From: Cytophagaceae bacterium SCN 52-12
GTDB taxonomy: Bacteria > Bacteroidota > Bacteroidia > Cytophagales > Spirosomataceae
NCBI GenBank assembly: GCA_001724175.1
Contig: MEDT01000039.1
Span: 28,007 to 92,006 of the forward strand
Reading direction: 5' to 3'
DNA: 64,000 nucleotides
How positions within the stretch are numbered: the stretch's first letter is position 1; every line of letters starts with the position of its first letter. The notes under the pieces are model-generated. The model was not told the DNA's origin and did no database searches. It saw only the letters and a program-made list of their open reading frames with translations. The position numbers were made by a program, and so were the translations under genes. Below, piece after piece: positions 6,428 through 42,729 of the stretch.

Positions 6428-7306
6428 TTACTTTTTAACCTCCACGACGGCGATAACGGGGAGATGGTCGGAATAATATCTTCCTTCCTGCTGGTCGGTA
6501 ATGGTGGCGTGCTGCAGCACCCGGACTTTATCGCTCACAAAAATGAAGTCGATTTTTGCCCTGAGGGGCTCTTTTCTTACAAAAAAACCGCTGGAAGTCC
6601 TCACCGGTCCGTAGTGAGGCGTTTCGGAAAGCCCGATCGCATCTTTCAGTATACCGTCCTTTGTTAAATTCTGATAGGTGACCGATTCGGGAGTCGCATT
6701 GAAATCCCCGGTTACGATTACCGCCGGCTGTCCCGTATGCCGCAAGGTATGCCGCCGGATCTGCTCAAGGATCACTTTGGCGCTTTCCTGCCTGGCGATT
6801 TCACCTCTGTGATCTAAATGGGTGTTGAAGAAGAAAAACGTCTTTTTCGCGGTTTTGTCTTTGAGCTTGCACCACGAAGCGGTCCGGGGATAGAAAGCAT
6901 CCCAGCTTTTGCTTTCCTTTACGTCGGGTGTTTCCGACATCCAGAACGTACCCGACCCCTCGAGGGTAAAGCGGCTTTTCCTGTAAAAGACAGCGGTATA
7001 TTCGCCGCTGGGGCCCTCCACCCTCGGCACCCCGTACCAGGCAAATTCCGGGAGCATTTTTTCGAGGTCGGCCAGCTGCGCGGGCTGCACTTCCTGTAAG
7101 CCGACAACGTCGGCACGATGATACCGTATCAGCGCCGCTACGTTTTCTTTGCGGTACTCCCACCCGTTTATGCTATCGATGGTATTCTTATACCTGATGT
7201 TGTAGCTCATCACACGCATCTCCTGCGCAAACAAACCTTCCGGCAGAAGAAAAATGAGCGCAATAGCCGGAAGAATGGAGGTAAATAATTTTGATAAAGA
7301 TTTCAT
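6428..7306 (-). CDS. Endonuclease/exonuclease/phosphatase (EEP) family secreted hydrolase
   Basis: A 292-residue exported phosphohydrolase with a signal peptide (LFTSILPAIALIFLLPEGLFA). The metal and catalytic residues of the DNase I-like/EEP fold are all present: Asn36 in MSYNIR, Glu72 in LQEV, His163 in NTHLDH, Asp201/Asn203 in TGDFNATPES, Asp253 in KIDFIF and Asp280-His281 in SDHLP. Members exported within SusCD loci usually act on sugar phosphates or phosphodiesters rather than DNA. It is the last gene of locus 1, 67 bases after a calcineurin-like phosphoesterase gene. I infer a periplasmic role in stripping phosphate from the imported glycan. A sphingomyelinase-like role cannot be excluded. 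Confidence 0.9.
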   Translation of the reverse strand: MKSLSKLFTSILPAIALIFLLPEGLFAQEMRVMSYNIRYKNTIDSINGWEYRKENVAALIRYHRADVVGLQEVQPAQLADLEKMLPEFAWYGVPRVEGPSGEYTAVFYRKSRFTLEGSGTFWMSETPDVKESKSWDAFYPRTASWCKLKDKTAKKTFFFFNTHLDHRGEIARQESAKVILEQIRRHTLRHTGQPAVIVTGDFNATPESVTYQNLTKDGILKDAIGLSETPHYGPVRTSSGFFVRKEPLRAKIDFIFVSDKVRVLQHATITDQQEGRYYSDHLPVIAVVEVKK

Positions 7307-7373
7307 GTATTGGTTTTTTAGTTATCAATATGGTAAAAGTCCAGCAGGGACAAGCTACCATTGATTCTGATTT

Positions 7374-8369
7374 TCACGGCTTTTTCTTCGCCCGCTCTTC
7401 ACTCTGTTTGATAAAATCCACTCCTTCCAGCACAAACTTCGAGCTGTCTTCTTTGGTTTTCCGGTAATAGGGCGAATACATGGAGGCAGCTACGGTACCC
7501 TTGTCGATATCAAAGTCCAGCAGGCGGATATAGCCCCCGCCCAGGTCGTCATTCTGGTAATTCTGAAGGATCTGGTATACTTTATTCCCCGCTTCTCCGT
7601 CGTCGACTTTTAAAGCCGAGCTCATGACATGCCCGCTGAGTACAAACCTGATGTTCGGATGCTTTTTAACGAGGCTGCCGAATACGACCTGCGGGCTGAA
7701 ATCGCCGTAGCCGGCGTTCCGGTCGGCGATTTCTCCCCGCGGCGTCAGGTGATAGTGTGTGAGTATGATGACGTTGTAGTTGAAATATTCCCTGATAATG
7801 TCGCCAGCCCAGTTAACAGGCCCCATACGCGGGCAAAATTCCAGCACCATGACGAGCCAGTTGGTATCGCCGACCCGGAAAGTATAATAAGCGTTGTCGC
7901 TCTTCCCTTCCTCGTAGCGGCCCCGCTGGTGCGTAAAGCGGCTTACGGGGAAATAGGAGTTGAACTTGTAGGTTTTTCTCAGGTTCTGGTTTACGTTGCC
8001 CGGCGCCGCGCTTCCGCTCAGGAAGCCCACCGCTTCGGTGTCGTGGTTGCCCAGGGCGATGGCATAGGGTATGTGATGCTTGTCCAGCATGTCAAAACCC
8101 CGGCTTGCCACTTCCCATTGGCCGTAATTGTCAAAATTCACCACATCTCCCACGTGCAGGAGCATAGGCATGTTGAGAGAATCTTTTTTGTCGATAAGCC
8201 ATTGGATGCGGCTGTAGAACATCTCATGATTGGCGGTTACCTCGGTTTGCGTATCGGGAAATACGGGCAGCGTGAATTTCTGGGCTACCCCGCTGCTGCA
8301 AGCCGCCAGGCAGGCTAAAACCGACAGTACGGCCGGTTTCAGGATTTTGTTTTCAGGCAAAAGTTTCAT
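7374..8369 (-). CDS. Secreted calcineurin-like metallophosphoesterase
   Basis: A 331-residue protein with a signal sequence and possible lipobox (LAAC, Cys24). Metallophosphoesterase motifs appear in order: the first motif is PDTQ (about 38-41) in place of the usual D-x-H, then LHVGDVVNFDN, ALGNHD (about 105-110), THYHLTPRG and LSGHVMSS. The D-x-Q form of motif 1 is also found in related Bacteroidota proteins. It probably removes phosphate from an extracellular or periplasmic organic phosphate. It lies between the GH99-like gene and the EEP gene of locus 1; the gap upstream carries two related hairpins that may separate it from the preceding genes. Confidence 0.87.
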   Translation of the reverse strand: MKLLPENKILKPAVLSVLACLAACSSGVAQKFTLPVFPDTQTEVTANHEMFYSRIQWLIDKKDSLNMPMLLHVGDVVNFDNYGQWEVASRGFDMLDKHHIPYAIALGNHDTEAVGFLSGSAAPGNVNQNLRKTYKFNSYFPVSRFTHQRGRYEEGKSDNAYYTFRVGDTNWLVMVLEFCPRMGPVNWAGDIIREYFNYNVIILTHYHLTPRGEIADRNAGYGDFSPQVVFGSLVKKHPNIRFVLSGHVMSSALKVDDGEAGNKVYQILQNYQNDDLGGGYIRLLDFDIDKGTVAASMYSPYYRKTKEDSSKFVLEGVDFIKQSEERAKKKP

Positions 8370-8412
8370 TATTTAAATTTTACAAAATAAAGATTCGAAA
8401 AATAATCTTACC

Positions 8413-8436
8413 GTGGTCTGTGTCCTCACAGACCAC
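8413..8436. repeat. Perfect 10-bp stem / 4-base loop hairpin
   Basis: GTGGTCTGTG (8413-8422) and CACAGACCAC (8427-8436) pair perfectly around TCCT. It lies in the gap between the GH99-like and phosphoesterase genes. On the minus strand it is followed by GGTAAGATTATTTTT, so partial termination or mRNA end protection is possible. Confidence 0.6.
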
Positions 8437-8462
8437 GACTACTGCCTCCTGTTGCTTTAATT

Positions 8463-8486
8463 CCGGTCTGTGGAGACACAGATCGG
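8463..8486 (-). terminator. Imperfect hairpin directly after the GH99-like gene
   Basis: The plus strand reads CCGGTCTGTG, GAGA, then CACAGATCGG: an imperfect 10-bp stem with a 4-base loop, beginning 3 bases beyond the stop of the minus-strand gene. It repeats the core GTCTGTG/CACAGA of the hairpin at 8413-8436, so the two look like copies of one element. No strong T run follows. Confidence 0.4.
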
Positions 8487-8488
8487 GG

Positions 8489-9592
8489 TTATTTCTTTCC
8501 AATCACTTCTTTTACCGCTTTCAAGTATTTCGCTTCCGGGTCTCCCTTGGTAGGCACCAGGTACCCGCCTTCGCCCAATTCGTTCCAGGCGTACAGGAGA
8601 ACGATCCGTTCGCGGGTGGTTTCTTCGGGGTGCTCGTCCATCCAGGTGATGGCTTTCTTCAGGAAGTCTTTGAATTGATCTACAGTGCGTTCGGGAAAAT
8701 ACCAGCCGGGTTTCTGGTTCAGCCCCGATGCACCCTCCCACGGGCGCTTGTCCCAGCCGACGGTTACTTCAGGAATATAGGGCTTTTCCCCGGAACCCGA
8801 CCAGTTTTTAAGATGGGCCGCCACCAGTTCTGAATAAGGATGTGCTTCTGAACCCGCCGCGTATCCCGGGATGATGTTGTAGTGCGTCCGGTGCGTAAAT
8901 CCTTTGGGTGAAGCCGAACCGCACCCCGCAATGGCGATGCCGTCGATGCCGCCGGCTCTGGCGGCCTGCTGCATCCTGGCGAGTCCTTCCTCATCGATCC
9001 CTTTTGAGTCAAAAAGCACTACCAGGGGCTTTCCTTCGACGGTAATATGCTGAGGGTCATTGAAATAGGGGAGCCAGTATTTGACGGCCTCTCCCCAGTT
9101 TTCAGGCCCGATAATCTCCGATCCGGTATGGTTTGCCACGAGAAGGCCGAACTTGATACGATGCTTGTTCCTGGCCTTCATGTAAAGGTTGAGGCTGGTA
9201 TGATGGGGGAGCGCCCCGATCGCTTCCGGGTTGATCGTGCCTTTATTGTCCCTCCAGTACCAGCAGAAAAGGAAAAAGCTGATGCCGTTATCAGCTGCGA
9301 GATCTATCTGCTTTTCCATAATTTCCAGGTCATCGTCGCGCCAGCCCCATACCGGCTCCCTTTCGGAGAATTCTTCGACGAACCTGCGGGTCAGGTGGGT
9401 AGGGGCATTTTTAGCCCAGGGCTCGTCGGGATTATCCGCATGCCTGTTCCGGCCTGCCCACCCGTCAAAATAATAAGCGCCGATCTCGACCTGCTTTTTG
9501 TCCGGAGCAGGCTGACCCAGGGAAGAAGGCATGTAACATGCCTGTATCGCAAGGGCGATCAGCCCTGCCGGAATTGATTTATACTTCAGCAT
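8489..9592 (-). CDS. GH99-like / WbsX-family (PF14307) glycan-active enzyme
   Basis: A 367-residue secreted protein, possibly a lipoprotein (AIQAC at residue 19). It shows the pattern of the GH99-like 'WbsX' family: EIGAYYFDGWAG near the N-terminus, FVEEFSEREPVWGWRDDDLE, ADNGISFFLFCWYW, VGWDKRPW, and a C-terminal LLYAWNELGEGGYLVPT. GH99 proper contains endo-alpha-mannosidases and endo-mannanases that use neighbouring-group catalysis; WbsX-type relatives are less well characterised. With SusCD and two phosphoesterases in the same operon, a mannan-like or phosphorylated glycan is a reasonable target, but this is inference. It begins 4 bases after the DUF1735/DUF5627-like gene ends. Confidence 0.82.
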   Translation of the reverse strand: MLKYKSIPAGLIALAIQACYMPSSLGQPAPDKKQVEIGAYYFDGWAGRNRHADNPDEPWAKNAPTHLTRRFVEEFSEREPVWGWRDDDLEIMEKQIDLAADNGISFFLFCWYWRDNKGTINPEAIGALPHHTSLNLYMKARNKHRIKFGLLVANHTGSEIIGPENWGEAVKYWLPYFNDPQHITVEGKPLVVLFDSKGIDEEGLARMQQAARAGGIDGIAIAGCGSASPKGFTHRTHYNIIPGYAAGSEAHPYSELVAAHLKNWSGSGEKPYIPEVTVGWDKRPWEGASGLNQKPGWYFPERTVDQFKDFLKKAITWMDEHPEETTRERIVLLYAWNELGEGGYLVPTKGDPEAKYLKAVKEVIGKK

Positions 9593-9596
9593 GTGC

Positions 9597-10613
9597 TTAT
9601 TGCGAAATAACTGGTTGGTACACTTCCATTATCACACCTCTGTCGCGAACGACCAGCGTGTCGGTGGCGGAGTAGGTGTTTTTCCCGTCCGAGAATTCGT
9701 AGCTGATATGGATCGCATCGCGTTTTTTGTTTCCCCATTCGTCGGCATCGCTGAGGAACTTCCCGGTCCCTTTGATTTCATAGGGAAAATCCTTCCCGCT
9801 GTTTACGGTACAGTTTTCGCCCGAGAAGGTAAGCAGGAGGTTCAGCGGACCCGTTACGATCGCGGAACGAAGGACGCCCGTTGCCGACACCTGGTTCTTG
9901 CTGGTAGTGGTCAGCTTCCATACCTCGTCTGAGGTAATATAGGGCTGCCTGTATGCTGTGGTCTCGGCGACTTGGCCCGTAGAATCTTTCAGTGTGCTCC
10001 TGCCCCTGTGGAAGTAGTTGCCGTGGTAAGGATTGACGTACCTGATGGCGAACATCGTGAAGTCCTTCGGAACGGCCTGCCAATGGGAAGTAATCCTGGG
10101 ATCGGGCGACGGCAATGCCGGATTGCCTCTCAGCACGCTGTCGAGATTGGTTACCTGGCTGATCCTGATGGGCACCACATAGGAGAGCCCTATGGCCAGC
10201 GTATCGTCGAAAAATGCGTCTTTCAGCTGTACCTCGATACTTCCGCTGACTTTTCCTGCCGGGATGACGATCTGGTCGGGGGAGCTTAGCGTATAATATT
10301 CCTGGGGCAGCGGACGTATCGGCGTCTGGGTAGATGCAAACAGCGCCTTTTCACACAGGCTGTTGTCTACCTGTATTTTGAAAATACGGTCCATGGTATT
10401 TTCGTAAACCCCTCCCATCGTGGTGGAAATGAGAAATTTATGATCGTTGTCGTTGGTGTTGTCATAAATGTCTTTTCCAAGCACCAGGGTCCGCACCGGG
10501 TACTGATAGGGGAAATAGCCGGTAGTGTAATCGAAATCGGGGAATTCGATTTCCTGGTTTTTACAAGCCGCCAAGGCTGTGAGCAGCATCAGCGCAAATG
10601 TTGTTTTCTTCAT
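9597..10613 (-). CDS. Surface lipoprotein, DUF1735/DUF5627-like (glycan binding)
   Basis: A 338-residue lipoprotein (signal LMLLTALAAC; mature CKNQEIEFPDFDY). The N-terminal part (about 25-170) resembles DUF1735 (VDNSLCEKALF, PLPQEYYTLSSPDQIVIPAG, SYVVPIRIS), a BACON/Ig-like domain. The rest resembles the DUF5627-type lipocalin-like domain (VNPYHGNYFHRG, YEFSDGKNTYSATDTLVVRD). Such proteins accompany SusD in many Bacteroidota loci and are thought to help hold glycan at the cell surface. It lies between the second SusD gene and the GH99-like gene. A dispersed inverted repeat fills the 173 bases upstream. Confidence 0.8.
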   Translation of the reverse strand: MKKTTFALMLLTALAACKNQEIEFPDFDYTTGYFPYQYPVRTLVLGKDIYDNTNDNDHKFLISTTMGGVYENTMDRIFKIQVDNSLCEKALFASTQTPIRPLPQEYYTLSSPDQIVIPAGKVSGSIEVQLKDAFFDDTLAIGLSYVVPIRISQVTNLDSVLRGNPALPSPDPRITSHWQAVPKDFTMFAIRYVNPYHGNYFHRGRSTLKDSTGQVAETTAYRQPYITSDEVWKLTTTSKNQVSATGVLRSAIVTGPLNLLLTFSGENCTVNSGKDFPYEIKGTGKFLSDADEWGNKKRDAIHISYEFSDGKNTYSATDTLVVRDRGVIMEVYQPVISQ

Positions 10614-10627
10614 CTGTATAAAAAGGT

Positions 10628-10775
10628 TATCAGCTTTCAGAAGTCAGCAATCAGCTCTTTGTCCCTGAGCCTGTCGAAGGGTTCATCGACGGCGGGCGGC
10701 GTACCGCGGGGCCGCCCAGGCTTTGTGCGCGATCTACTGCGCGGCTGATAGCTGATTCCTGACTGCTCATTGCTA
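10628..10775. repeat. Dispersed intergenic inverted repeat, copy 1
   Basis: Between the second SusD gene and the DUF1735/DUF5627-like gene. The left arm holds TCAGAAGTCAG (10637-10647). The right arm holds GCTGATAGCTGA (10744-10755) followed by TTCCTGACTGCTCATTGCT, roughly complementary to the left arm. The interior carries the quasi-palindrome CCCTGAGCCTGTCGAAGGG (10663-10681), a word common in bacterial intergenic repeats, and a GC-rich hairpin. Related copies lie at 26862-26917, 42611-42716, 44476-44550 and 59222-59395. Confidence 0.6.
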
Positions 10776-10786
10776 TTTCAAAAGAG

Positions 10787-12550
10787 TTACCAGCCTTTGT
10801 TCTGCACTAAGGCGTTGTATTTGACCACTTCTGTTTCCGGTACCGGGCCGTAATGCATGTATTCGTTGCTGAAGGCGCGCGGCTCTACGTCAACAACCGT
10901 CATCACGGAACCATTGATATTGATCCCCTTCGCGGGCTCGGTAAGATTTTCCTTCCAGCGTCGGAGGTCCCAGAAGCGGAAACCTTCAAAGCACAGCTCC
11001 AGGCGTCTTTCATTACGGATTACCTTACGCATGTCTTCTTTCGTAACGACGGAGGCGAGGTAGGCGTCGGGCTGCGGGATGCCCGCCCGCTTGCGCAGGG
11101 CTTCTATGACATTGCGCGCCGAAAAGCCGGCTGCTCCCGTACCATCGGGCCCCCAGGCTTCGTTGGCAGCTTCTGCGTAAATGAGAAACAGCTCGGTGTA
11201 GCGCATGTGTACTTCGTAGTGCTTTTGGGTAGTAGACGAGACCGGGTTGAGGTTGACCTCCTCTACGAGCAGCTTTTTAAGATAATAGCCGGTACGGGTC
11301 GAGCTCTCGATGGAGTCCTTGGCATTGACGCCTCCGCCGCGGCCGGTAAGAAGCGGTTTTCCTGAGAATGTGTTCCCGTTATAGGCAATGTAAAGCTGGA
11401 GGCGCGGGTCGCGGTTGGCATAGGGCGCCGACGGGTCGTAGTTGCTTGCCGGGTCAGTGATCGGGTATCCGTTTGCCGCCGGGAAGGCATCCACCAGGTT
11501 CTGGGTGGGATTTACATTGCCCCGGCCAAACAGCGAGGGCGGGAAGTTGGCCTGCTCGCGTGTGTTGGAGTTGGCTACCGATCTTCGCCACAGGATCTCT
11601 TTCTGGTCGATCGGCGAACCGGCCGAAACGTTCAGGGCATCCACCAGCGATTTCAGGTAAAAACGGTGTCCGGCAGGATCGATACCGGCAATTCCGCCGA
11701 TGGTGTTGAGCACCTCTCCTGCAAAACCTGCCGTCTTTTCCCAGAGCGCCGTATTCCCGCTGTTGAATGCCGGGCTGGCTTCCAGCAGGGCCACCCGGGC
11801 TTTCAGAGCCTTTGCCATCCTGGCGCTGATCCGCTGGTTGAGCTCATTGCCGAAAATAATATTGTAGTTGACCACCGACACGTTCTGATATCCCGGAGGC
11901 AGCTGGCCGGGGTCCGATATATTCCTGTAATCGTTCATGGTAAGGTATTCCAGCGACCGGTCGATATCGGAGTAAATCTGCGCGACGGATTGGGCGAAAG
12001 TAGCCCTGGGAATATTGAAGTCGGCGTTTACGTCAAGGAAACGGTCGATGACCGGGATCCCGAGCATCTGTCCGTCGGCCCCGGGGCCTGCCGTCGTGAC
12101 CAGCAGGTGATACTGGAACAAGGCGCGCAGCGCATAAGCCTCTCCTTTGAAGCGCTGGGTGTACATCCATTGCAGTTCGGGGATGGATTGCTTCCAGTTT
12201 ACCTCGTCTACCATATCGAGAAACTGGTTGATGCTCTGGATCGCTGCGATACAGTTTTCCCATTGGCTGACAGGGTTGAAAATGGCCGACCATTGGCCGG
12301 TAGCCATCCGCAGGTAGTTGTTCAGCTTATCGTTGCTGACCGCGTCGTCGGTGGCTACGTCGTTAAAGCTGAGGGAGTTGGTAGGGATTTTCGTATAAGC
12401 CGCTATGAGTACGCCCTCGGCAAAAGAAGGGTTTTCATGAACACGATCGATCGTGGCATGATTGTCATCTACCGGGTCGAGCACGCCGCATGCCGACAGG
12501 TAAACGGTAAGCAGCAATGGCAGGCCGTAAGTCTTTATTGATTGTAACAT
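10787..12550 (-). CDS. SusD/RagB family lipoprotein (second pair of locus 1)
   Basis: A 587-residue SusD-like surface lipoprotein with lipobox LSAC (signal LPLLLTVYLSAC). Typical SusD parts are visible: TPR-like helices in the N-terminal half (QWMYTQRFKGEAYALRALFQ), a central variable glycan-binding region, and the C-terminal RagB block (RYTELFLIYAEAANEA, RNERRLELCFEGFRFWDLRR). SusD caps the SusC barrel and binds the glycan before import. It follows its SusC gene by 16 bases and precedes the DUF1735/DUF5627-like gene. Confidence 0.95.
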   Translation of the reverse strand: MLQSIKTYGLPLLLTVYLSACGVLDPVDDNHATIDRVHENPSFAEGVLIAAYTKIPTNSLSFNDVATDDAVSNDKLNNYLRMATGQWSAIFNPVSQWENCIAAIQSINQFLDMVDEVNWKQSIPELQWMYTQRFKGEAYALRALFQYHLLVTTAGPGADGQMLGIPVIDRFLDVNADFNIPRATFAQSVAQIYSDIDRSLEYLTMNDYRNISDPGQLPPGYQNVSVVNYNIIFGNELNQRISARMAKALKARVALLEASPAFNSGNTALWEKTAGFAGEVLNTIGGIAGIDPAGHRFYLKSLVDALNVSAGSPIDQKEILWRRSVANSNTREQANFPPSLFGRGNVNPTQNLVDAFPAANGYPITDPASNYDPSAPYANRDPRLQLYIAYNGNTFSGKPLLTGRGGGVNAKDSIESSTRTGYYLKKLLVEEVNLNPVSSTTQKHYEVHMRYTELFLIYAEAANEAWGPDGTGAAGFSARNVIEALRKRAGIPQPDAYLASVVTKEDMRKVIRNERRLELCFEGFRFWDLRRWKENLTEPAKGININGSVMTVVDVEPRAFSNEYMHYGPVPETEVVKYNALVQNKGW

Positions 12551-12566
12551 ATTTCTTGTCTTAAAA

Positions 12567-15557
12567 TTAGAACCATGCGTTTAACCCGATGGAAAATGAC
12601 CTGTACTGAGGCTCAATTCCTATGTTCCGCTCCATGATACGACGGTTTTTGGAAATGGTCATCAGGTTGGAAGCGTCTGCAAAGACAGACAGCTGCTTCA
12701 TCGTGAGCTTGTTTGACGTCATCGGGATATCATACGTAAGCTGCACCCTGTCGACCTTAAAATAATTGCCGGAATACAGCCAGAAGGTGGAGCTCCTGTA
12801 ATTGTTGGTATTGGCGATGGAGCTCAGGCGCGGGTAGGTGGCGGTCGCTTTCGTAGCCTCGGTCCACCTGTTCAGTACAAACGAGGAGTATTTGTCGTCT
12901 GCGTCCACCCAGTAGTAATCCCCTTCCAGCATGCCGTCTGCGCCCGATCTCCCGTTGCCGCGGGCAAACAGCGTCAGGTTCTTGTAGGATACCTTGAGAT
13001 TCAGGCCGTACGAAAACGGTGATTGCCACCGGCCGATATACTTTTCGTCGTTGGCGTCTATTATCCCGTCATTGTTCTGGTCGACATACCTGATATCACC
13101 GGGCTTCACCGTTCCGAAAGCCTGCACGGCATGGCTGGCAATATCTGCCTGGCTGGAGAAAAAGCCGTCGGCGATAAGGCCGTAGCGGGCGTCTACCGGT
13201 CTGCCGGTGCGGTACCGGTAGCCATCGGCATAAATCTCATCCCTCTTTTTCACTTTCGACGTGGCGTAAAGCGCGTTGGCGCCGACCGCTACATGAAAGG
13301 CCCCGATATTCCGCTGATAGGAAAGCCCCAGCTCAGCTCCCTTGTAGGCATTTTTGCCGAAGTTCTGGAAAGGGATGTAGTTGGTGAAGTAGCTTGGGAA
13401 GATCGTTTGCGGACGCGTGATCAGGTCGGAATAAGTGCTTGCAAAGACGTTGGCGTCGATGAAAAGCTGGCGGTCGAACCATACGCTCTCGATCCCGAAA
13501 TTGACCTCCCGCCTTTTCTCGAAAGAGAGGCGCGGGTTACCGCTGTTGGCCGGCAAAGTCCCTGATCTGGACCTTGTTCCTTCGTACCAGGAATAAGAGC
13601 CCGAGGTGCCGTAGCGGTCGTCATAGTAATAAAAGCCCGAGATACCGGCATCCGAGTTCATTTCTCCGGCCGAAAGGCGCAGCTTCAGGAAGTCCACGGC
13701 CGTTGCGGAAGCCATGAAGTCTTCCGCGCTCACTACCCAGGCTACGCCGAGGGAAGGAGAGAAGGCCGTCCGGTTGCCGGGCGGGAGCTTCACGGAATTG
13801 ACATAGGCGCCACTGAAGTCAACGAGGTATTTGTTCTGATAACCGTAGGTAAGCCTGAGCCCGAGGTTCGCGTTTTTGTTGCCCTGGAGGCTTTCCTGGG
13901 CCTTGTCGTGGGCCATGAACCCGAGCAGGGAGCCCGAAACCGTGTGTACTTCGTTGAAGGTACGGTTGTAGTCAAGCAGGCCGTAAAAACCGATCCGTCT
14001 CCTGTAGGAGGCATTTCCTACGTTCTGGGTGCCCGAACGTACATCTTCGCCGAATTGCTTCAGGCTGACTATACGGTCCTGCGTCTCGTCCCATGTGGGC
14101 TCATATACGGAATACTGGTTGCTGATATACTGGTCGTACAGGGTGAAGTAATCGAAGCTGAAGTTCGTATGGAAGGCCAGGCCCTGCACAGACCTGCCCA
14201 GGTCGAAATCGATACGGTTGTTGAAAGAAAAAGTACGCTGTACGCGTTCGTTCGTTCCGCCCGACCAGGCATTGGCGATGGGGTTGGTCTGGTAGCTGGT
14301 GGTACCGCCCAGCAGGTACATCCCGTTGATATCGTTTTTCCGCTGCATCAGCACGGGGTTTTCCCGATCCATCAAAGAAATGGGCAGCAGGGGAGAAAAC
14401 AGGTTAGGCCGCAGGGAGTCGGCAGCGGCCCAGTAGTCGCCGCGCGGACCGTTGCTGTTGTTCAGCACAACAACCGCATCCAGGGCGCTTTTGATCCAGG
14501 AGTTGACCTTGAGGTCGACGTTGCCTCTGATATTGAAGACGTTGGATTTAGCTCCTTTCCCTTCGCCGAAATTGTAAAGGCTCCCGGTCTGGCTCCATCC
14601 TATGTTGGAATAATAGGTAGCAACGCTGTTTCCGCCGGAGAAATCGACCGTGGCCCTCGAAAACGGTTTCTGTGACCGCAGGTACTCGCTCGAGTAGTAA
14701 TCGATGCTGGGGTAGCGGTATGGATTCCCGTTACGGTATTTCTGGATCAGCTCCGAAGAATACTGGACGCCGAGGCCGTCATTGAGCCGGGCCTCGTTGT
14801 AAAGCTGCATATAGTCGGCGGAAGAGAGGTACTCCGGGAGCTCGGTCGGCCGGGAGATACCGTAAAACGCCTGGGCATTGATCTGCCTTTTGTAGGCTTC
14901 CCCCCGTTTTGTTGTGACCAGGACTACTCCGTTTACGGCGTCGTTACCGTACAATATGGCGGAGTTGATGTCCTTCAGCACCGATATCTGCTCGACTTCG
15001 GCGAGGTTGAGCGTGCTGATGTCGCGCGGAAGGCCGTCGACGATAAACAGCGCATTTCCGATCCCGCGGATATTGGAGCTGCCCAGCATACCCGGCAGCA
15101 TCCCGGTCAGCGCTGAAGCGAGGGTCTGGGTGTTGTCGTACCTTCTGAGCTGAGAGGGGTTCAGCACGCTGACCGCATTGACCAGCCCGGCTTTCTTTGT
15201 CGTGCCGAAGGCGACCCGCACCTTGTCTTTTTCTCCCGACAGGAAAGATGCTTTTTTCAGGATGAGCGTCTGGCCCACGCCGTATTCTCCGGCTTCGAAC
15301 ACTGCCGGCTCGTAGCCGGGAGCTTCGATCAGCAGGTTTCCGATCACGGATGCAGAGAAGGAAAACTCTCCCGCCTTGCCGGATTTTACCACGTCTACCC
15401 CTTCATTGGCGTAAATCAGCGCCCCTTCCACAGGCCTGCCGTTTTCATCGTTTACTGCAGCCTGCAGCCGGGGTGCGGGCTGCTGAGCCGGCGACAGCAA
15501 AGGCCAAAACAACAGCATACAACCTGCAAGGGCTGTTATATATCTATGTATTTTCAT
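12567..15557 (-). CDS. SusC/RagA family TonB-dependent transporter without STN domain (second pair of locus 1)
   Basis: A 996-residue outer-membrane transporter, shorter than the other three SusC proteins here. After the signal peptide comes a carboxypeptidase-D-like domain (AAVNDENGRPVEGALIYANE), then a plug with SALTGMLPGMLG, IRGIGNALFIVDGLPRD and AILYGNDAVNGVVLVTTKRG, and a 22-strand barrel region ending in aromatic-terminated SIGLNAWF. It lacks the N-terminal STN signalling domain, so it should not signal directly to FecR. It follows SusD 1 by 54 bases and forms a tandem SusCD with 10787-12550. Confidence 0.95.
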   Translation of the reverse strand: MKIHRYITALAGCMLLFWPLLSPAQQPAPRLQAAVNDENGRPVEGALIYANEGVDVVKSGKAGEFSFSASVIGNLLIEAPGYEPAVFEAGEYGVGQTLILKKASFLSGEKDKVRVAFGTTKKAGLVNAVSVLNPSQLRRYDNTQTLASALTGMLPGMLGSSNIRGIGNALFIVDGLPRDISTLNLAEVEQISVLKDINSAILYGNDAVNGVVLVTTKRGEAYKRQINAQAFYGISRPTELPEYLSSADYMQLYNEARLNDGLGVQYSSELIQKYRNGNPYRYPSIDYYSSEYLRSQKPFSRATVDFSGGNSVATYYSNIGWSQTGSLYNFGEGKGAKSNVFNIRGNVDLKVNSWIKSALDAVVVLNNSNGPRGDYWAAADSLRPNLFSPLLPISLMDRENPVLMQRKNDINGMYLLGGTTSYQTNPIANAWSGGTNERVQRTFSFNNRIDFDLGRSVQGLAFHTNFSFDYFTLYDQYISNQYSVYEPTWDETQDRIVSLKQFGEDVRSGTQNVGNASYRRRIGFYGLLDYNRTFNEVHTVSGSLLGFMAHDKAQESLQGNKNANLGLRLTYGYQNKYLVDFSGAYVNSVKLPPGNRTAFSPSLGVAWVVSAEDFMASATAVDFLKLRLSAGEMNSDAGISGFYYYDDRYGTSGSYSWYEGTRSRSGTLPANSGNPRLSFEKRREVNFGIESVWFDRQLFIDANVFASTYSDLITRPQTIFPSYFTNYIPFQNFGKNAYKGAELGLSYQRNIGAFHVAVGANALYATSKVKKRDEIYADGYRYRTGRPVDARYGLIADGFFSSQADIASHAVQAFGTVKPGDIRYVDQNNDGIIDANDEKYIGRWQSPFSYGLNLKVSYKNLTLFARGNGRSGADGMLEGDYYWVDADDKYSSFVLNRWTEATKATATYPRLSSIANTNNYRSSTFWLYSGNYFKVDRVQLTYDIPMTSNKLTMKQLSVFADASNLMTISKNRRIMERNIGIEPQYRSFSIGLNAWF

Positions 15558-15611: not shown

Positions 15612-17459
15612 CTACCAGCCCGGATTCTGTGAGAACCCTTCGTATAGCCTGGTATCTCCCAATTGGAAAGGCAGCCAGTTATGCCGTTTTTCAAAAACAC
15701 GCTGTACGACTACCCTTTCGCGGAGGTTAATGGGCTTGCCGTCGCTGCCGAGGTCAAAATCAATAGCTGTTTTGTCGATATATTCGGCATTGCCCGCAAT
15801 ATTCCAGCGACGCAGGTCGAAAAACCGGTGTCCTTCGAAGGCAAATTCTACCGCGCGCTCACGGATGATCTGTTTCATAAATGCATCTTTGGAAGCGGTG
15901 TACCTGGCCGGGAGAGCAGGCAGCTGGGCGCGGGTCCGGATGATGTTGACGGCATCGATTGCGGTCAGGGCGCTGCCTGCTGCCGTCGACGTCGGTGATC
16001 CGTACCCGTGAAGCACGGCTTCGGCATAGATCAGGTATACATCGGCCAGCCGCATGATAGGATGATAGGACTGGAAATTACTCCAGCGGTTATCCCAGGG
16101 GTTATTTCCCTTGGGCGTCCATTTCCGGTAAAAGTAGCCGGTAACGCTTCCGGCAACGCCAGCGCTGGCAGGTGTGCCGTTGCGGTGCCTGCCCGAGTTG
16201 GACAATTGGGCAAATTCATTTTCCTTAGCTGCCGCCGCCACTGCGTTGTCGACCAGCCGCACCCCTTCGTAGACGATATCGACATAAAACCTGGGCTCCC
16301 GGCCTGTCCAGGGCTGGTTGGGATCATAGCCCGATTCGGGGTCGTCTATGGGCAGGCCGTTCGCCATACCATAGTTTTTAATGAAGTTATGCGTGGGTAC
16401 TTCCACGCGGTTGTTGCCGGCGCCGAACTGGACCGGGTTGGTGGTCCGGTTGGTTGTAAAGCGCACAAAGCTCGGTATGATCACGGTCGGGTTCATAATG
16501 ACTTCGGTCCCGCCCGAACGTTCGCGGTTACCCGGCGACCATACCCAGAAATTGTCTGTCCAGGTATCCCAGCTCTGAAGCTTGTAAGCGCCCGACTCAT
16601 TGCAGATTTTGATCACTTCGGCTGCTACGTCGGCCGCCTGCTTCGCGAGCTCGGTATCGTAGGCGTTGTTGCCTGTCGACGACTCGTTCATCATCGGGCT
16701 TGCGGCGTACAGCAGGTTGCGGGCCAGCATCGAAAGCGCGTGGATTTTAGTAATGCGCTGCGAGTTATTGCCCAATGTAGCCTGGCCGACGGTCGTGTCA
16801 TCCCATTTGAGCGGGAGCAGGGCAGCGGCGGCGCGGAAGTCTTCCGCTACTTTCAATGCTGTTTCACGGTAGGTCATGCGCGGCAGCTTCAGTTCCTCTG
16901 ACGACGACAGCACTTCGTTTATATAAGGTAATCCGCCATACCAGCGCATCAGTTCAAAGTGGAAGTAGGCCCTGAAAAACAGGCATTGACCTTCGATCAC
17001 GCTGCGGGCTTCCGGGGTGGCGTTTGCCAGCAGCTCGAGCTTGCTCAGACCGAGGTTGGCCTTGCGGATGGCGTACCAGGCAAATGGCCATACGCGCATC
17101 CGGGTGAGGTTGCCGCTATAATCCATCCGGGGACTGGCCGCATACAGGAAGGTAGTCTGGTTCCAGTAGTTGCCGTCGTCCCAGGGAAGGGGTACATTGC
17201 ACAGCACTTCGTCGGAGGCGCTGAAGTTGTAATACTGGTTTCCGCCCAATACCTTGTGGATGTCTACGATACAATCGTACATCTCTTCGACGAATCCCTG
17301 GAAGCTTACAAAGCTGCCGAAAACGTCGGTATCGGTAATGCTCGCTTCGGGAGCCTTGTCCAGATAGTCCTCGCAGCTGCCGAAAAGAAAACCGGCGAGC
17401 ACCATCGGCACGATCAGGCGCCATCTGTTTTTATGAATTGTATTTTTTATGATTCGCAT
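15612..17459 (-). CDS. SusD/RagB family lipoprotein (first pair of locus 1)
   Basis: A 615-residue SusD-like lipoprotein with lipobox FGSC (signal IVPMVLAGFLFGSC, mature CEDYLDKAPEASITDTDVF). The RagB N-terminal helices (VIEGQCLFFRAYFHFELMRW, YGGLPYINEVL) and C-terminal block (MRLADVYLIYAEAVLHGYG, RERAVEFAFEGHRFFDLRR) are clear. It is predicted to be surface exposed, in complex with the SusC encoded 3 bases upstream. Confidence 0.95.
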   Translation of the reverse strand: MRIIKNTIHKNRWRLIVPMVLAGFLFGSCEDYLDKAPEASITDTDVFGSFVSFQGFVEEMYDCIVDIHKVLGGNQYYNFSASDEVLCNVPLPWDDGNYWNQTTFLYAASPRMDYSGNLTRMRVWPFAWYAIRKANLGLSKLELLANATPEARSVIEGQCLFFRAYFHFELMRWYGGLPYINEVLSSSEELKLPRMTYRETALKVAEDFRAAAALLPLKWDDTTVGQATLGNNSQRITKIHALSMLARNLLYAASPMMNESSTGNNAYDTELAKQAADVAAEVIKICNESGAYKLQSWDTWTDNFWVWSPGNRERSGGTEVIMNPTVIIPSFVRFTTNRTTNPVQFGAGNNRVEVPTHNFIKNYGMANGLPIDDPESGYDPNQPWTGREPRFYVDIVYEGVRLVDNAVAAAAKENEFAQLSNSGRHRNGTPASAGVAGSVTGYFYRKWTPKGNNPWDNRWSNFQSYHPIMRLADVYLIYAEAVLHGYGSPTSTAAGSALTAIDAVNIIRTRAQLPALPARYTASKDAFMKQIIRERAVEFAFEGHRFFDLRRWNIAGNAEYIDKTAIDFDLGSDGKPINLRERVVVQRVFEKRHNWLPFQLGDTRLYEGFSQNPGW

Positions 17460-17462
17460 ACC

Positions 17463-20400
17463 TCAAAAAGTTAAATCGATACCGATGTTGACCCGTTTTG
17501 GCGTGGGATAGGCGCCTGCGCTTGCATCGCCGCCCGACATGGCTGCTTCCCGGTCGTCCGGAAGCCGCGACCAGAACCACAGGTTGTTCCCGTTTACAAA
17601 CAGGCGGAGATTGGATAAGCCGAGCCGGCTCAGGACAGGCTTCTGGAATGTATAGGCAACTTCCGCTGTTTTCAGGCGCAGGTACGAGCCGTCATATATG
17701 AAATAATCGCCGATAAACTGCCCCTGCGATTTCCAGCGCGGGATAAACGAGCTGGCATCCTGGTTGTCCTTAGACCAGTAGTCCCTCACGTGCGCGAACA
17801 GGGTATTCTGGTACATGTAAAAGTTATTGAGAGGGATGTTTCTCGACACGTTGTTGACGCCGTAAAACTGGAGCGTCACGCTGAAGCCCTTGTAATCCCC
17901 GCCGATACTGGCGTTGTAGCTGTTCATCGGGACTTCCGAATAGCCGAAGGGAACCGTATCGTCATTCCCGGTAATGACCCCGTCGCCGTTGAAGTCTGCG
18001 ATATTGTAGTAGCCCGGCAGCTTGGAAAGATCGTTGGTTTGCTGCGGTGTGCTGGCAAACACTTCATCCCAGTTGTTGTAGAAGCCGGTGCGTACCTGCG
18101 ACCTTATCTGGCCGATCTGGTAGCCGGCCTGCTTCAGGTAGGCTGCCTGCAGCACGGGATCGTCGCGGTTGATGATCTTGTTTTCGGTATGTGTCAGGGA
18201 GAACATGCTCCACAGGTGCAGCCCGTTGGAAAAGCCTTTGTTCAGCCTCAGCTCCAGCTCATAGCCCTTCGATTTGACCTGTCCCAGGTTGGCCGACGGA
18301 GGCGTGGCTCCGAAATAGGGCGGGATCGCACGCGAGGTGCCGTCTATGATGATATCGGTCCTGTTTTCGGTAAAATAGTCGAAATTAATGGATACCAGGT
18401 CTTTAAATAGGCCGATTTCGGCGCCGTAGTTCGTTTTCCTGGCTTTTTCCCACCGGATATTCGGGTTCCCGACGATTTGCTCCTTGTAAAAATTATAGGG
18501 GCTCCTTTCGTTCGGGTTGGCATTCAGCAGGGCGGAATTGATACCCTGGCCGCCATACTGATACTGCGACTGGTAGGCCCAGCGGGCCCCGCCGGCATCG
18601 TCGCCCACGACCCCGGAGCTGTAGCGGAATTTCAGGCGGTTCATCCATTCCACGTCGAAAAATTTCTCATTGGAAGCATACCAGCCGGCCGCAAAGGAAG
18701 GGAAGAAGTCGAACCGGTAGCCGGGGCCGAATTTTTCGGAGCCGTTATAGGCGCCGTTGAACTCGAAAAGGTACCGGGTATCGTAGTCGTAGGTGGTTCT
18801 GAATACCCAATCTTCGCGATAGCTCGGGAACATGCTTCCGCGCGCGAACTGCTCTCTTTTGAAGAGGGCCATGGCTCCTACGTGGTGTACGCCGAAGTCG
18901 CGCGTATAGTTGATCTGGTGCTGGTGCATCAGCCTTCTCAGGGTGGCGGAGGCTGACGTTTCTTCGGCATTGATCGTCCAGGGGTTCACCACCCAATCGA
19001 ACGCGTTCGCCGCCGTTACGGGAGTCGTTTCCGTATATTCGCCGGGGTCCTGGTCGCCTCCCGTATAGCGGGAGGGATACACGATTTTACCGAGAAGGTT
19101 TCCTTCCGGTCTCACGTGGTTCTGATCGGAGATCCCGCCCAGGGTCTGCATCCCGTTATCATAAAACAACGAGCCGGTGTAGCTCAGGCCCTTGGTGATA
19201 AAATCCAGCTTCTGCTCGAGCGAGAAGTCTGCCCTGAGCTCCACGTTGCGCTGCTGCCATACGCCCGTGTTGTAGATGAGGGCAACCGGGTTTTGCAGCG
19301 CTTCGGGAGGCAGCGCGTAGCTTTGCCCCCAGCTTCCGTCGGGATATTGCGGCAGGATGACGTCCGGGGGAAAGCGGTAGGCCGCAGCCCATGCGAGCAG
19401 GTTGTTGCCGGAGCTGGCGTTGTTATAGGAGTAGTTCGTGCTTTTCTGGCTGAACAAACCGGCGAGGTTAACCCTCAGGTTGGTGGTTTTGGTCAGCTTG
19501 AAATCGAGATTGCTCCTGAAATTGAAGCGGTTGAAACCATAGCTCGGATCGTAGCCTTTGTGGTTGTCGTATTTGCGGAACATATCCCCTTCGTTGAGGT
19601 ACGACAGGGAGCCGAAGTACTTGACAAAGCTGGTTCCTCCTGAAACATTCAGGTTGGCCCGCTGGGACCACGACACATCCCTGAACATCGCCTTCTCCCA
19701 ATCGACATTCGGATAAAGCATGGCGTCTGTGGCCGACTGGGGCTTTTTATAACGCAGCGCCACTTCATAAGGGACATAATCGCCCCATGAAACCGGGCTG
19801 ATAGGGCCCTCCCTCTCGATCATCTCGTTCCTGACCATGATCGCTTCATACGAATCCAGCTTTTCGGGCAGCCTCGATACCGACAATGCGGTAGCGCTGT
19901 AGTTGAAAGACAGCTGGGGCTTAGACTCGGACCCTCTTTTCGTTGTGATGAGAATAACTCCGTTCGCACCCTTTACCCCGAAGACGGCAGTAGCCGAGGC
20001 ATCTTTCAGCACGGAGATCGTTTCCACCTCGCTGACGTCTACATTGCTCATATCACGCTCTACGCCGTCGATCAGGATGAGCGGCTGGCCGCCGTTCCAG
20101 GTATTGCGCCCGCGGATGAAGATGGAGGTAGCATTACCGCCGGTCAGCGTACCGCCGGGCTCCCCGCTGGAGGTGATGGTGGTAAGGCCGGGCAGTTGGC
20201 CGGTGAGCGCCTGTTTCAGATCGGTTACGTTGCCGGCCCGTTTGAGGTCTTCCTGGTTGGCCTGTACGATCGATCCCACCACGCTCTGCTTTCGCTGCGT
20301 ACCGAAGCCCACGACGACTACTTCATCCAGTATTTTTTCATCTACTTTCAGGGAGACTTTGACCGAGGCCTGGTTTCCGACGACAACCTCCTGTGAAAGG

Positions 20401-20984
20401 TAGCCCACGAACGAAAACACCAGGACGGCGTCCCTATCGGGAACGCTGATGGTGAATTTGCCGGTTACATCGGTCGTCGTTCCCTGCTGCGTGCCTTTCA
20501 GCAGCACGCTGACACCCGGCAGACCTTCGCCGGTCTCGTCTGTGACGGTACCCTGGATCCTGATGTCGGCAGGCTCCAGGGATAATCCGTCCGGTTCCGC
20601 AGAAACCTGCCCGGTCTCGGGCTCGCTCGGGGTGAGCACCACCTGGTTCCCGATAAGCCGGTACTTGATATGAAGGGGTGTGAGCAGCTGTTCCAGCACA
20701 TCCGAAAGCTTGTCATTCCGGTAGTCTACCGTGGCCCGCAGCTCTTCCGAAATAAGCCTTGTCCGGTAAGTAAACTTGACATTAGCCTGCCGTTCTATGC
20801 GAACGAGTATCTCCGCCACCTTCCGGTTGTCCAGCTGGAGGTTTATCCTGCGGTTAAGCAGGTCCTGGGCGTCCGCTTCCCTTGCCAGCGACATCCCGGC
20901 GAAGGAAATGGCCATGAAAACCTGTATCAGGGATACTTTCATGAGGCTACATAAGATTTTTTGGAAATCTGAATCTTTTTTCAT
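17463..20984 (-). CDS. SusC/RagA family TonB-dependent transporter with STN domain (first pair of locus 1)
   Basis: A 1173-residue outer-membrane transporter. After the signal region come an STN domain (about residues 45-125: RINLQLDNRKVAEILVRIE, then NVKFTYRTRLISEELRATVD), a carboxypeptidase-D-like domain (about 148-230: IQGTVTDETGEGLPGVSVLL, VLVFSFVGYLSQEVVVG), the TonB-box-like DEVVVVGFGTQRK, a plug (LTGQLPGLTTITSSGEPGG, ATAVFGVKGANGVILITTKR) and a large barrel ending in VNIGIDLTF. The STN domain lets the transporter signal to the FecR encoded just upstream, so this pair is probably the sensory one of locus 1. Confidence 0.96.
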   Translation of the reverse strand: MKKDSDFQKILCSLMKVSLIQVFMAISFAGMSLAREADAQDLLNRRINLQLDNRKVAEILVRIERQANVKFTYRTRLISEELRATVDYRNDKLSDVLEQLLTPLHIKYRLIGNQVVLTPSEPETGQVSAEPDGLSLEPADIRIQGTVTDETGEGLPGVSVLLKGTQQGTTTDVTGKFTISVPDRDAVLVFSFVGYLSQEVVVGNQASVKVSLKVDEKILDEVVVVGFGTQRKQSVVGSIVQANQEDLKRAGNVTDLKQALTGQLPGLTTITSSGEPGGTLTGGNATSIFIRGRNTWNGGQPLILIDGVERDMSNVDVSEVETISVLKDASATAVFGVKGANGVILITTKRGSESKPQLSFNYSATALSVSRLPEKLDSYEAIMVRNEMIEREGPISPVSWGDYVPYEVALRYKKPQSATDAMLYPNVDWEKAMFRDVSWSQRANLNVSGGTSFVKYFGSLSYLNEGDMFRKYDNHKGYDPSYGFNRFNFRSNLDFKLTKTTNLRVNLAGLFSQKSTNYSYNNASSGNNLLAWAAAYRFPPDVILPQYPDGSWGQSYALPPEALQNPVALIYNTGVWQQRNVELRADFSLEQKLDFITKGLSYTGSLFYDNGMQTLGGISDQNHVRPEGNLLGKIVYPSRYTGGDQDPGEYTETTPVTAANAFDWVVNPWTINAEETSASATLRRLMHQHQINYTRDFGVHHVGAMALFKREQFARGSMFPSYREDWVFRTTYDYDTRYLFEFNGAYNGSEKFGPGYRFDFFPSFAAGWYASNEKFFDVEWMNRLKFRYSSGVVGDDAGGARWAYQSQYQYGGQGINSALLNANPNERSPYNFYKEQIVGNPNIRWEKARKTNYGAEIGLFKDLVSINFDYFTENRTDIIIDGTSRAIPPYFGATPPSANLGQVKSKGYELELRLNKGFSNGLHLWSMFSLTHTENKIINRDDPVLQAAYLKQAGYQIGQIRSQVRTGFYNNWDEVFASTPQQTNDLSKLPGYYNIADFNGDGVITGNDDTVPFGYSEVPMNSYNASIGGDYKGFSVTLQFYGVNNVSRNIPLNNFYMYQNTLFAHVRDYWSKDNQDASSFIPRWKSQGQFIGDYFIYDGSYLRLKTAEVAYTFQKPVLSRLGLSNLRLFVNGNNLWFWSRLPDDREAAMSGGDASAGAYPTPKRVNIGIDLTF

Positions 20985-21081
20985 TGATTTGATCAGTTCT
21001 TGTTTTTCAGCAAAAGCAATAACTATCCCTTTATCCTAATTGACGGATATTATTATACGTTATCAAGTAAAGGGTACGAAG

Positions 21082-21107
21082 CCGGGAAACGCTGCAACCG
21101 TTCCCGG
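21082..21107. promoter_or_regulatory. Hairpin in the FecR-SusC gap of locus 1
   Basis: CCGGGAA (21082-21088) pairs with TTCCCGG (21101-21107) around a 12-base loop, within the 221-base gap (20985-21205) between FecR and SusC on the minus strand. No T tract follows it on the minus strand. It may mark a leader or processing site separating low-level regulator expression from high-level transporter expression. Nothing else recognisable lies in the gap. Confidence 0.35.
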
Positions 21108-21205
21108 TTTCATCATAATTAAGTAATCTGTTTATATCATCGGCAGTTGAATTAGGTTTAAGTTCAAGTTGAGATCAAGTTCATTTGGTCGGCAGGCTGC
21201 TCCGC

Positions 21206-22315
21206 TCACTGGCATTTCTTCCCGCTGACGACGATTTGCGCGTCTACCACTTTATAGGATGCATCGATGGCTTCGCAAAGGACGTCGAGCTTTTCGAAAA
21301 GGCTTACATCGTCATCCAGCGTACTGGTGAGCCGGCAATCGGAGAGCAGTTCCTGGTCAAACAGTATTTCAGTATCGTATACTTTTTCCAACGCCCTGAA
21401 AATATCGGAAACGGGTGCATTCTGGAAAGCGAATTGCTGAAGCTCTTCCGTAGAAAGGACCGGAACCGGTTCGGGTACCAGCGTCCTGGTGAACTTTTCG
21501 ACTCTTTTGGAGTAGTCTACCTGCTGGTTGGCGCGCAGGATCAGCCCCTGTGATTCTGGATCTTCCTGCGGGTTTTTGGGAGCCGCGAAGACCGATACCT
21601 TCCCGGTTCTCACGACTACCGTCACATTGTCGCTTCCTTTCCTGGCCCTGATGTTGAAAGAAGTTCCCAGGACTTTGGTGATCAGCCCGTTGGAATACAC
21701 CAGGAAGGGCCTTTCCGTATCTCTGGTGACTTCGAAAAAGGCTTCCCCGATGAGCTGTACATTTCTTGTAGCGCCCGAAAAATTCCGGTTGCTATACCTG
21801 ATGGTGCCGTTTGGCTGCAAGGTTACGCGGCTGCTGTCGGGCAATATAATGACGCTGGCAGCGGCGGTATTGTTCGTGATCTGCTCCAGCTCCGAATCGG
21901 GAAGGATATCGAGGCTGTCGGGGGTAAAGAAGGACAAGGAAGGATTATGGCTGCGCGAGCCGTTTTCTAAAGTAAAAAGAAGGTACCCGGCCCCGATTGC
22001 CGCAACAACGGCAGCGGCCGCTTTAGCCCAGGAGCGCTGCCACCATTTGAGATGCTTTTTCCCCGACGCGATAGATTTTTGAAGGTTTGCCCATATTTCT
22101 TCTGTATCTCCCTGGTTAACAGCTGTTTGGGAGGCCGTAGCGAGATTTTGCACGGTTTGTATTGCACGACGGACTACCGGGCGCTGGTAAGGAAAAGTCT
22201 CCTGGAAATCATTCCAGTACTGATCACTTTGCGGGCCGGGAGACAATACCCATTTGACAAAATGTTCATCCTGAGCGAAATCTTCAAAACTATAGGCGGC
22301 GTATTTTTCAAACAT
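21206..22315 (-). CDS. FecR-family anti-sigma factor (locus 1)
   Basis: A 369-residue single-pass inner-membrane protein. A cytoplasmic N-terminal sigma-binding region is followed by a helix at about 97-114 (AAAAVVAAIGAGYLLF), a FecR domain at about 145-250 (LPDSSRVTLQPNGTIRYSNR, VQLIGEAFFEVTRDTERPF, TKVLGTSFNIRA, RTGKVSVFA) and a C-terminal DUF4974 domain at about 297-366 (FQNAPVSDIFRALEKVYDTE). It is expected to hold the FecI-type sigma factor inactive until the STN domain of SusC signals. It lies between FecI (171-base gap) and SusC (221-base gap). Confidence 0.94.
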   Translation of the reverse strand: MFEKYAAYSFEDFAQDEHFVKWVLSPGPQSDQYWNDFQETFPYQRPVVRRAIQTVQNLATASQTAVNQGDTEEIWANLQKSIASGKKHLKWWQRSWAKAAAAVVAAIGAGYLLFTLENGSRSHNPSLSFFTPDSLDILPDSELEQITNNTAAASVIILPDSSRVTLQPNGTIRYSNRNFSGATRNVQLIGEAFFEVTRDTERPFLVYSNGLITKVLGTSFNIRARKGSDNVTVVVRTGKVSVFAAPKNPQEDPESQGLILRANQQVDYSKRVEKFTRTLVPEPVPVLSTEELQQFAFQNAPVSDIFRALEKVYDTEILFDQELLSDCRLTSTLDDDVSLFEKLDVLCEAIDASYKVVDAQIVVSGKKCQ

Positions 22316-22412
22316 CTGTTTCCAGGGTAACTTCTAACCCCTAAATGAAAGAAAGCTATCCTTGTACTCACTCAAAAAAAGAAAAAGTTATTTTTTTTAT
22401 AAAAAACATTAA

Positions 22413-22483
22413 GGTATTAAGGGCATTAAGCCCCTCATTAACTATCCTGTAGCAGCGGCCGCTTAACTCCTTAATGGTTACTC
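22413..22483. repeat. ATTAAGG-type repeat region in a FecI-FecR gap
   Basis: The gap between sigma and FecR contains CATTAAGGTATTAAGGGCAT (from 22408), and further right CTTAACTCCTTAATGG, an inverted version of the same word. A similar A/T-rich repeat with CCTTAATTCCTTAATGG occurs in the equivalent gap of locus 2 (37647-37715). Such words are frequent in Bacteroidota intergenic DNA; a regulatory role is unproven. Confidence 0.4.
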
Positions 22484-22486
22484 TTT

Positions 22487-23071
22487 TTATCCGAAAATTT
22501 TAATCAGGGAGAGGATAAGGCCCCCGGCGATTTCAAAGTGGTTCCTGAGGTGCACGATCGCGCGGTGCAGGAGATTGCGGACAGACTGGTTGTTCATCTG
22601 CATGACAGACGAGATCTCTTCAAGGCTGAAGGAATGAAAATACCGCAGCTGTATGGCTTCCTGCTGGCGTTTCGGCAGCCTGTCGATGGCTTGCTTGAGC
22701 TGCGACAGCTGGCCGGAGCGGGTTTCCTGTTCTATAAGCTCCTGCTCCCGGGAAGCGTCCGCCAGGAGCTCGTCAATCCTGAAGCCCTGCTCGTAAGGCG
22801 ATGGATCCGTCGACGTCCGGACGATCCGGTTCCGTAAAGAACGGAACAAATAATATTTAATGGAATCTGTTTCCGACAGCTTCTCCCGATGCAGCCAGAT
22901 ATGAAGGAACAGGTCGTGGATGCTGTCTTTGATCAACTGCCGGTTTGACGTGATCCGGTAGCCATAGCTCAGCAATTCGGCAATGTGCATCCTGTAAATG
23001 CTGCCAAATGCCTGGCTGTCCCCTTCGCGGAACCTGTTCCATAAATGAAGATCTGACGATGGAAAATCCAT
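22487..23071 (-). CDS. FecI-type ECF sigma factor (locus 1)
   Basis: The ATG at 23071 is preferred over an upstream TTG at 23122, giving about 194 residues. Region 2 (LWNRFREGDSQAFGSIYRMH, IKDSIHDLFLHIWLHREKL, SIKYYLFRSLRNRIVR) and region 4 (IDRLPKRQQEAIQLRYFHSF, SLEEISSVMQMNNQSVRNLL) match the 'Bacteroides expansion' family of FecI-like sigma factors. It would transcribe the SusCD operon downstream when released by FecR. It is divergent from the YncE-like gene, with 285 bases between the two starts. Confidence 0.93.
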   Translation of the reverse strand: MDFPSSDLHLWNRFREGDSQAFGSIYRMHIAELLSYGYRITSNRQLIKDSIHDLFLHIWLHREKLSETDSIKYYLFRSLRNRIVRTSTDPSPYEQGFRIDELLADASREQELIEQETRSGQLSQLKQAIDRLPKRQQEAIQLRYFHSFSLEEISSVMQMNNQSVRNLLHRAIVHLRNHFEIAGGLILSLIKIFG

Positions 23072-42716: not shown

Positions 42717-42729
42717 AAACCTTATATAG

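Follow-up and report, generated by a model that had tools for sequence, protein, structure and literature searches.

Several described systems come close to parts of the gene set reported here. The xylan core cluster, known from Bacteroides xylanisolvens (BXY_29250-29300) and Bacteroides ovatus (BACOVA_03430), joins two SusCD pairs to a DUF1735+DUF5627 protein and an enzyme of glycoside hydrolase (GH) family 10 (PMC11216935). The yeast alpha-mannan polysaccharide utilization loci (PULs) of Bacteroides thetaiotaomicron include a GH99 enzyme (BT3862) and phosphatase genes, among them that of the EEP-type mannosyl-6-phosphatase 4c1r. In Flavobacterium johnsoniae, the PusCD system PUSI combines SusCD with two periplasmic phosphodiesterases, one of them listed as PF00149, and is induced by depletion of inorganic phosphate (Pi) (PMC8115612). 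Here we describe a locus of Cytophagaceae bacterium SCN 52-12 that shares features with each of these systems. It occupies positions 6428–23122 on the minus strand of a 64,000-nucleotide stretch of contig MEDT01000039.1 (hereafter the window), and encodes an ECF sigma/FecR pair, two SusCD pairs, a DUF1735+DUF5627 lipoprotein, a PF14307 protein (WbsX), a calcineurin-type metallophosphoesterase (MPE) and an EEP-family phosphatase (EEP).

We read the locus as a PUL variant that would import an oligosaccharide of manno or rhamno configuration that bears a phosphodiester, and strip it in the periplasm, and assign this reading a probability of about 0.4. The two SusCD pairs and the DUF1735+DUF5627 lipoprotein would capture and import the oligosaccharide, and the sigma/FecR pair would sense, by way of the SusC1 N-terminal domain, whether the transporter is occupied. 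Of the periplasmic enzymes, WbsX would be a GH99-like glycosidase of the retaining kind, cleaving 1,2-trans sugars with an axial 2-OH (alpha-mannose- or alpha-L-rhamnose-configured), MPE would open the phosphodiester, and EEP would then remove the remaining phosphomonoester. The catalytic activities, the order of the steps, the regulation and the phosphodiester of the imported glycan are all predictions.

The genes themselves, their export signals, their synteny and their recurrence were observed directly. Pfam and NCBIfam profile scans of the window proteins agree with an earlier sequence-only reading of this DNA, which had recognised an operon-like run of SusCD pairs, binding protein and enzymes; the ten genes are co-directional and separated by gaps of 3–221 bp (Table 1). 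That reading ended the run at 23071, cutting off some 50 bp of the sigma gene, which we take from the first TTG and thus extend to 23122. SusC and SusD are adjacent in both pairs. Inspection of N-termini showed that SusD1, SusD2 and the DUF5627 protein each carry a lipobox, and that EEP and WbsX have plain signal peptides, judged by eye; MPE has a possible lipobox in the window, and the orthologues checked mostly have none. From these signals, the lipoproteins most likely lie at the surface, where they would bind and import, and the enzymes in the periplasm. A promoter and terminator scan gave counts near those of shuffled sequence.

When the gene set was sought in other genomes, as the sequence-only reading had proposed, the order SusC1-SusD1-SusC2-SusD2-DUF5627-WbsX-MPE was found to be kept in seven more Spirosomataceae genomes, including those of Rhabdobacter roseus, Spirosoma terrae, Spirosoma endophyticum, Dyadobacter psychrotolerans and Dyadobacter sp. 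CY323, with EEP as the tail gene in two of the seven. Because of this conserved order, the grouping is more than chance. Identity to the window proteins is 58–85% overall (SusC1 71–84%, SusD1 76–85%, SusC2 66–73%, SusD2 72–78%, DUF5627 63–75%, WbsX 58–76%, MPE 76–80%), and three relatives also have an ECF sigma gene ahead of the operon, its product 57–59% identical. Among the eight genomes, EEP closes the operon in three (the window, Rhabdobacter and genome G174), and a second WbsX (approximately 35–38% identity) does so in the other five (three Spirosoma-type, two Dyadobacter). Both Dyadobacter genomes retain an EEP of the window's clade elsewhere.

The enzymes also recur beside other importers. 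MPE orthologues (52–80% identity) stand beside at least five SusD types that are <40% identical to one another, namely the tandem type and those of loci L058/L060, L059, L061-L065 with L072, and L124/L133/L134. Four backgrounds contain the complete trio of MPE, WbsX and EEP: the window type, L060 in Dyadobacter, L063 in Parabacteroides and L068 in a Prolixibacteraceae metagenome-assembled genome. The EEPs of L063 and L068 are just 40% identical to that of the window. Two large proteins without a Pfam match (715 and 849 amino acids) lie between MPE and WbsX in L063 (11040-15775). The 223 genomes of the family hold 14 MPE-clade loci, with WbsX near MPE in 10 and EEP directly adjoining MPE in six. 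This last count is far above chance, although its binomial probability (~1e-13 to 1e-15) is a rough guide only, because related loci are counted as independent. Since the trio recurs in four backgrounds and the MPE–EEP adjacency exceeds chance, a phosphate-bearing substrate can fairly be inferred from the enzyme families and their repeated pairing.

Three further loci (L124:2-7826 of Rhabdobacter, L133:2897-11835 and L134:5626-14705) consist of SusC-SusD-MPE and one or two EEP genes, with no recognised glycosidase adjacent. They bring to mind the PUSI and PUSII clusters of F. johnsoniae, in which SusCD likewise stands beside periplasmic phosphodiesterases or a phosphomonoesterase, a combination of gene families also found in the window locus. 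Such a locus might serve for phosphorus rather than carbon, taking up phosphodiesters (head groups of sphingolipids or lipids, for example) from which WbsX would trim the sugar. However, PUS clusters are without carbohydrate-active enzymes and are induced by Pi depletion, whereas each of the eight operons of the window type has WbsX, and the likeness to the PUSI enzymes is one of description, not of sequence comparison. Moreover, the window locus has its own sigma/anti-sigma pair, and because this control is local, sensing of the substrate is favoured over the Pho regulon. We regard organophosphorus scavenging as unlikely, but as a serious rival.

Single-sequence searches of the PDB gave no match with WbsX (phmmer, thus no GH99 entry either) or with MPE, so structures were predicted for both. 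The AlphaFold2 model of WbsX (mean confidence, pLDDT, 89) matched GH99 endo-alpha-mannosidases (MANEA, BtGH99 and BxGH99) first and GH71 next in Foldseek (E ~1e-10, probability 1.00, TM-score ~0.55–0.59), with 14–18% sequence identity to the GH99 structures. N337, E338, E341 and G342 (NExxEG) are invariant across 33 WbsX homologues, and E338 and E341 are three residues apart, as are E333 and E336 of BxGH99 (residues from PDB titles); spacing, not superposed position, is compared here. Only PF14307 matched the sequence at E≤1e-3, and a profile search returned weak GH99 matches (E 0.0016–0.03). By its model, WbsX is GH99-like in fold and glutamate pair, and it is outside GH99 by sequence. GH99 enzymes follow a 1,2-anhydro-sugar route that fits alpha-mannosides, and by analogy the same geometry would fit alpha-L-rhamnosides.

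The sequence-only reading had suggested a phosphorylated glycan such as phosphomannan. In a yeast-type phosphomannan locus, MPE would split Man-1-P-6-Man, EEP would be a mannose-6-phosphatase and WbsX an endo-alpha-mannanase, which would suit both the GH99-like fold and the kinship of EEP with 4c1r. The EEP motifs SYNIR, GLQEV, NTHLDH, GDFN and SDH are intact in the sequence and in the alignment to 3g6s, so that all active-site elements (N, QE, H, GDFN and SDH) are present, and its closest PDB entries are 3g6s and 4c1r. However, EEP is 37.5% identical to 4c1r, and of eight ordinary family EEPs used for comparison, seven are closer to it (43–48%). In a tree of 19 rows EEP belongs to a seven-member clade (support 100/99) so far met with in Spirosomataceae genomes. 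This clade is the secure part of the tree; the deeper placement is unsure, because the PDB rows are on long branches. On the identities and the tree, phosphomannan by way of EEP orthology to 4c1r is rejected. Furthermore, GH76 and GH92, whose absence the sequence-only reading had already noted, were assigned to no scanned window protein and have no match in the whole draft genome (79% complete). The Bacteroidales relatives of WbsX and MPE neighbour GH106, GH127, GH28, GH5 and GH3 genes. GH127 was considered as a constant partner and rejected; it recurs in the Bacteroidales loci, yet the genome that holds the window gave no match to it.

The locus therefore differs from the B. thetaiotaomicron yeast alpha-mannan PULs, as had been supposed, in four respects: it has no GH76 or GH92, its WbsX has no GH99 profile match at E≤1e-3, its EEP is outside the 4c1r lineage, and its transporter is of the xylan type described below. 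What stands of the original proposal is that a phosphorylated glycan may be handled with a mannanase-related enzyme, since the phosphoesterases belong with WbsX and the latter has a GH99-like fold and catalytic pair; phosphomannan itself has become very improbable. Even for our preferred reading, the mannan part is weak, because GH92 and GH76 are absent from the 79%-complete genome and relatives have rhamnosidase-type partners.

The AlphaFold2 model of MPE (pLDDT 89) is nearest in fold to Lmo2642, purple acid phosphatases, Rv0805 and GpdQ. Its motifs PDxQ, GD, GNHD, H and GH (D39xQ41, G74D75, GNHD107-110, H205 and GH246-247) are invariant in 25 homologues down to 27% identity. Pfam and fold both place it among the metallophosphoesterases, but it departs from the full canonical ligand set (DxH, GD, GNHD, H, GHxH): across the 25 sequences Gln takes the place of the motif I His, and a non-His residue that of the last His. 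Because these two metal-site histidines are missing, phosphoesterase chemistry is not assured, and MPE is best described from its sequence as a distinct subclass, a predicted phosphoesterase with altered metal ligands. The ligand changes would also suit an explanation in which WbsX, MPE or both are non-hydrolases with binding or transferase roles, leaving EEP as the sole conventional enzyme; PF14307 carries a glycosyltransferase name in Pfam, and the most distant WbsX homologues (31–34%, BLAST) sit in gene runs without SusCD matches. The signal peptides, the PUL setting, the glutamate pair invariant in 33 WbsX sequences and the conservation of most MPE ligands make this improbable.

The import module has a different history from that of a mannan system. 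The sole PDB match of the DUF5627 protein is 3n91 (BACOVA_03430, of a xylan PUL; E 7.9e-60), and the SusCDCD-DUF5627 genes, which stand in the same order as the five surface and transport genes of the xylan core cluster, are 39–52% identical to a GH10-bearing version in related genomes (SusC1 45–46% to the xylan-cluster SusC, SusD2 51.6% to the xylan-cluster SusD2). GH10 was confirmed by Pfam in two of these homologous clusters, L105 and L107, the latter with a hybrid two-component regulator. Because of this homology, the module is to be classed from its sequence as xylan-type by descent, not mannan-type, descent being no proof of the same substrate. In place of GH10 the window has WbsX, MPE and EEP (or a second WbsX in relatives), WbsX occupying the position directly downstream in all eight genomes, and it has ECF sigma/FecR where the xylan cluster has its hybrid two-component regulator. 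A third version of the cluster, closer to that of the window (~50–58% identical), has no recognised adjacent enzyme in five genomes (L109-L112 and L114). The window's own genome contains a second tandem SusCD-DUF5627 set (L113, G000:C108, 191-13338), 50–57% identical and of this third version; it is followed by a heparinase II/III-like gene, and its SusC1 homologue is apparently split into two frames.

Such ancestry, together with the GH106, GH127 and GH28 genes beside WbsX/MPE relatives and the non-canonical MPE metal site, would be expected of a plant-glycan locus for a xylan- or pectin-like substrate without phosphate, in which the target of MPE and EEP would be a minor decoration or something that is not a phosphate ester. 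Yet none of the eight operons contains GH10 or another xylanase, the MPE–EEP pair is found also without any adjacent glycosidase, and the repeated pairing of two phosphoesterase families would be left to explain. We consider a plant-glycan locus unlikely, though seriously to be reckoned with.

Several observations weigh against import and periplasmic stripping of a phosphodiester-bearing oligosaccharide. Five of the eight operons have no EEP, the MPE metal site is altered, and the closest characterised relatives of the transporter take xylan, which is non-phosphorylated. In the open literature we found no characterised PF14307 glycosidase and no PUL role for WbsX/PF14307. The phosphate of the putative substrate is deduced from enzyme families and their repeated pairing. 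A bolder proposal, which we hold doubtful, is that WbsX-MPE-EEP is a portable periplasmic module that has moved among unrelated SusCD importers and dismantles an undescribed class of phosphodiester-linked, manno- or rhamno-configured glycan, with the PF14307 proteins of PULs as a new glycoside hydrolase family and the MPE subclass as a new kind of sugar-phosphodiesterase whose metal site is non-canonical. If so, Bacteroidota would keep one set of enzymes for phosphate-bearing glycans and reuse it with any available SusCD importer, xylan-type import machinery would have been re-purposed, the PF14307 proteins of PULs would gain their first activity, and carbon-type PULs would be tied to the phosphorus-type PusCD systems.

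Table 1. Genes of the locus from ECF sigma to EEP, with positions in the window
Gene product	Position	Strand	Evidence
ECF sigma factor	22487..23122	-	PF08281/PF04542, TIGR02985-like
FecR-type anti-sigma factor	21206..22315	-	PF04773, PF16344
SusC1 TonB-dependent transporter, N-terminal FecR_C/STN-like signalling domain	17463..20984	-	TIGR04056 1.7e-243; PF16344 residues 49-116
SusD1 surface lipoprotein	15612..17459	-	PF07980/PF14322, 3e-47; lipobox FGSC
SusC2, second TonB-dependent transporter	12567..15557	-	TIGR04056 5e-151
SusD2 surface lipoprotein	10787..12550	-	PF07980, 7e-47; lipobox LSAC
DUF1735+DUF5627 surface lipoprotein (SusE position)	9597..10613	-	PF08522 (BT_3987-like N, DUF1735) 9e-21; PF18620 (DUF5627) 3e-28; lipobox LAAC
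WbsX, GH99-like putative glycoside hydrolase, exported	8489..9592	-	PF14307 1.2e-21; AlphaFold2 fold; E338/E341
MPE, calcineurin-type metallophosphoesterase, exported	7374..8369	-	PF00149 1.4e-8; AlphaFold2 fold
EEP-family phosphatase, exported	6428..7306	-	PF03372 1.9e-22; 3g6s and mannosyl-6-phosphatase 4c1r as relatives

Between WbsX and MPE (8410-8491) lie two palindromes of the type GGTCTGTGNNGACACAGACC, in opposite orientation and about 50 bp apart. Genome-wide, this palindrome has 29 matches, several of them as close pairs, compared with one for the reversed control (≤2 mismatches, both strands, palindromic sites being partly counted twice); it is a dispersed, REP/REPIN-like element. 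Elsewhere in the window, two L,D-transpeptidase genes (YkuD_2 and YkuD) follow one another at 26931-29281, and an iron-uptake-like set of a PepSY protein, two DUF4374 proteins and a TonB receptor occupies 29295-35501. A second PUL (37856-47943) comprises FecR, SusC, SusD, a 225-amino-acid protein of no recognised family, an Sde182 nucleoside-hydrolase-like protein and an apiosidase-like protein; its SusD is 35–38% identical to the MPE-associated SusD group L061-L065 and L072. A third PUL (47970-59159) contains an M14 peptidase, a xylose-isomerase-like TIM barrel, a DLH-type esterase and a SusD that is 81% identical to a SusD of Dyadobacter sp. CY323, whose gene lies a few kb away from that of an EEP in the same clade as the EEP of the window (L117).

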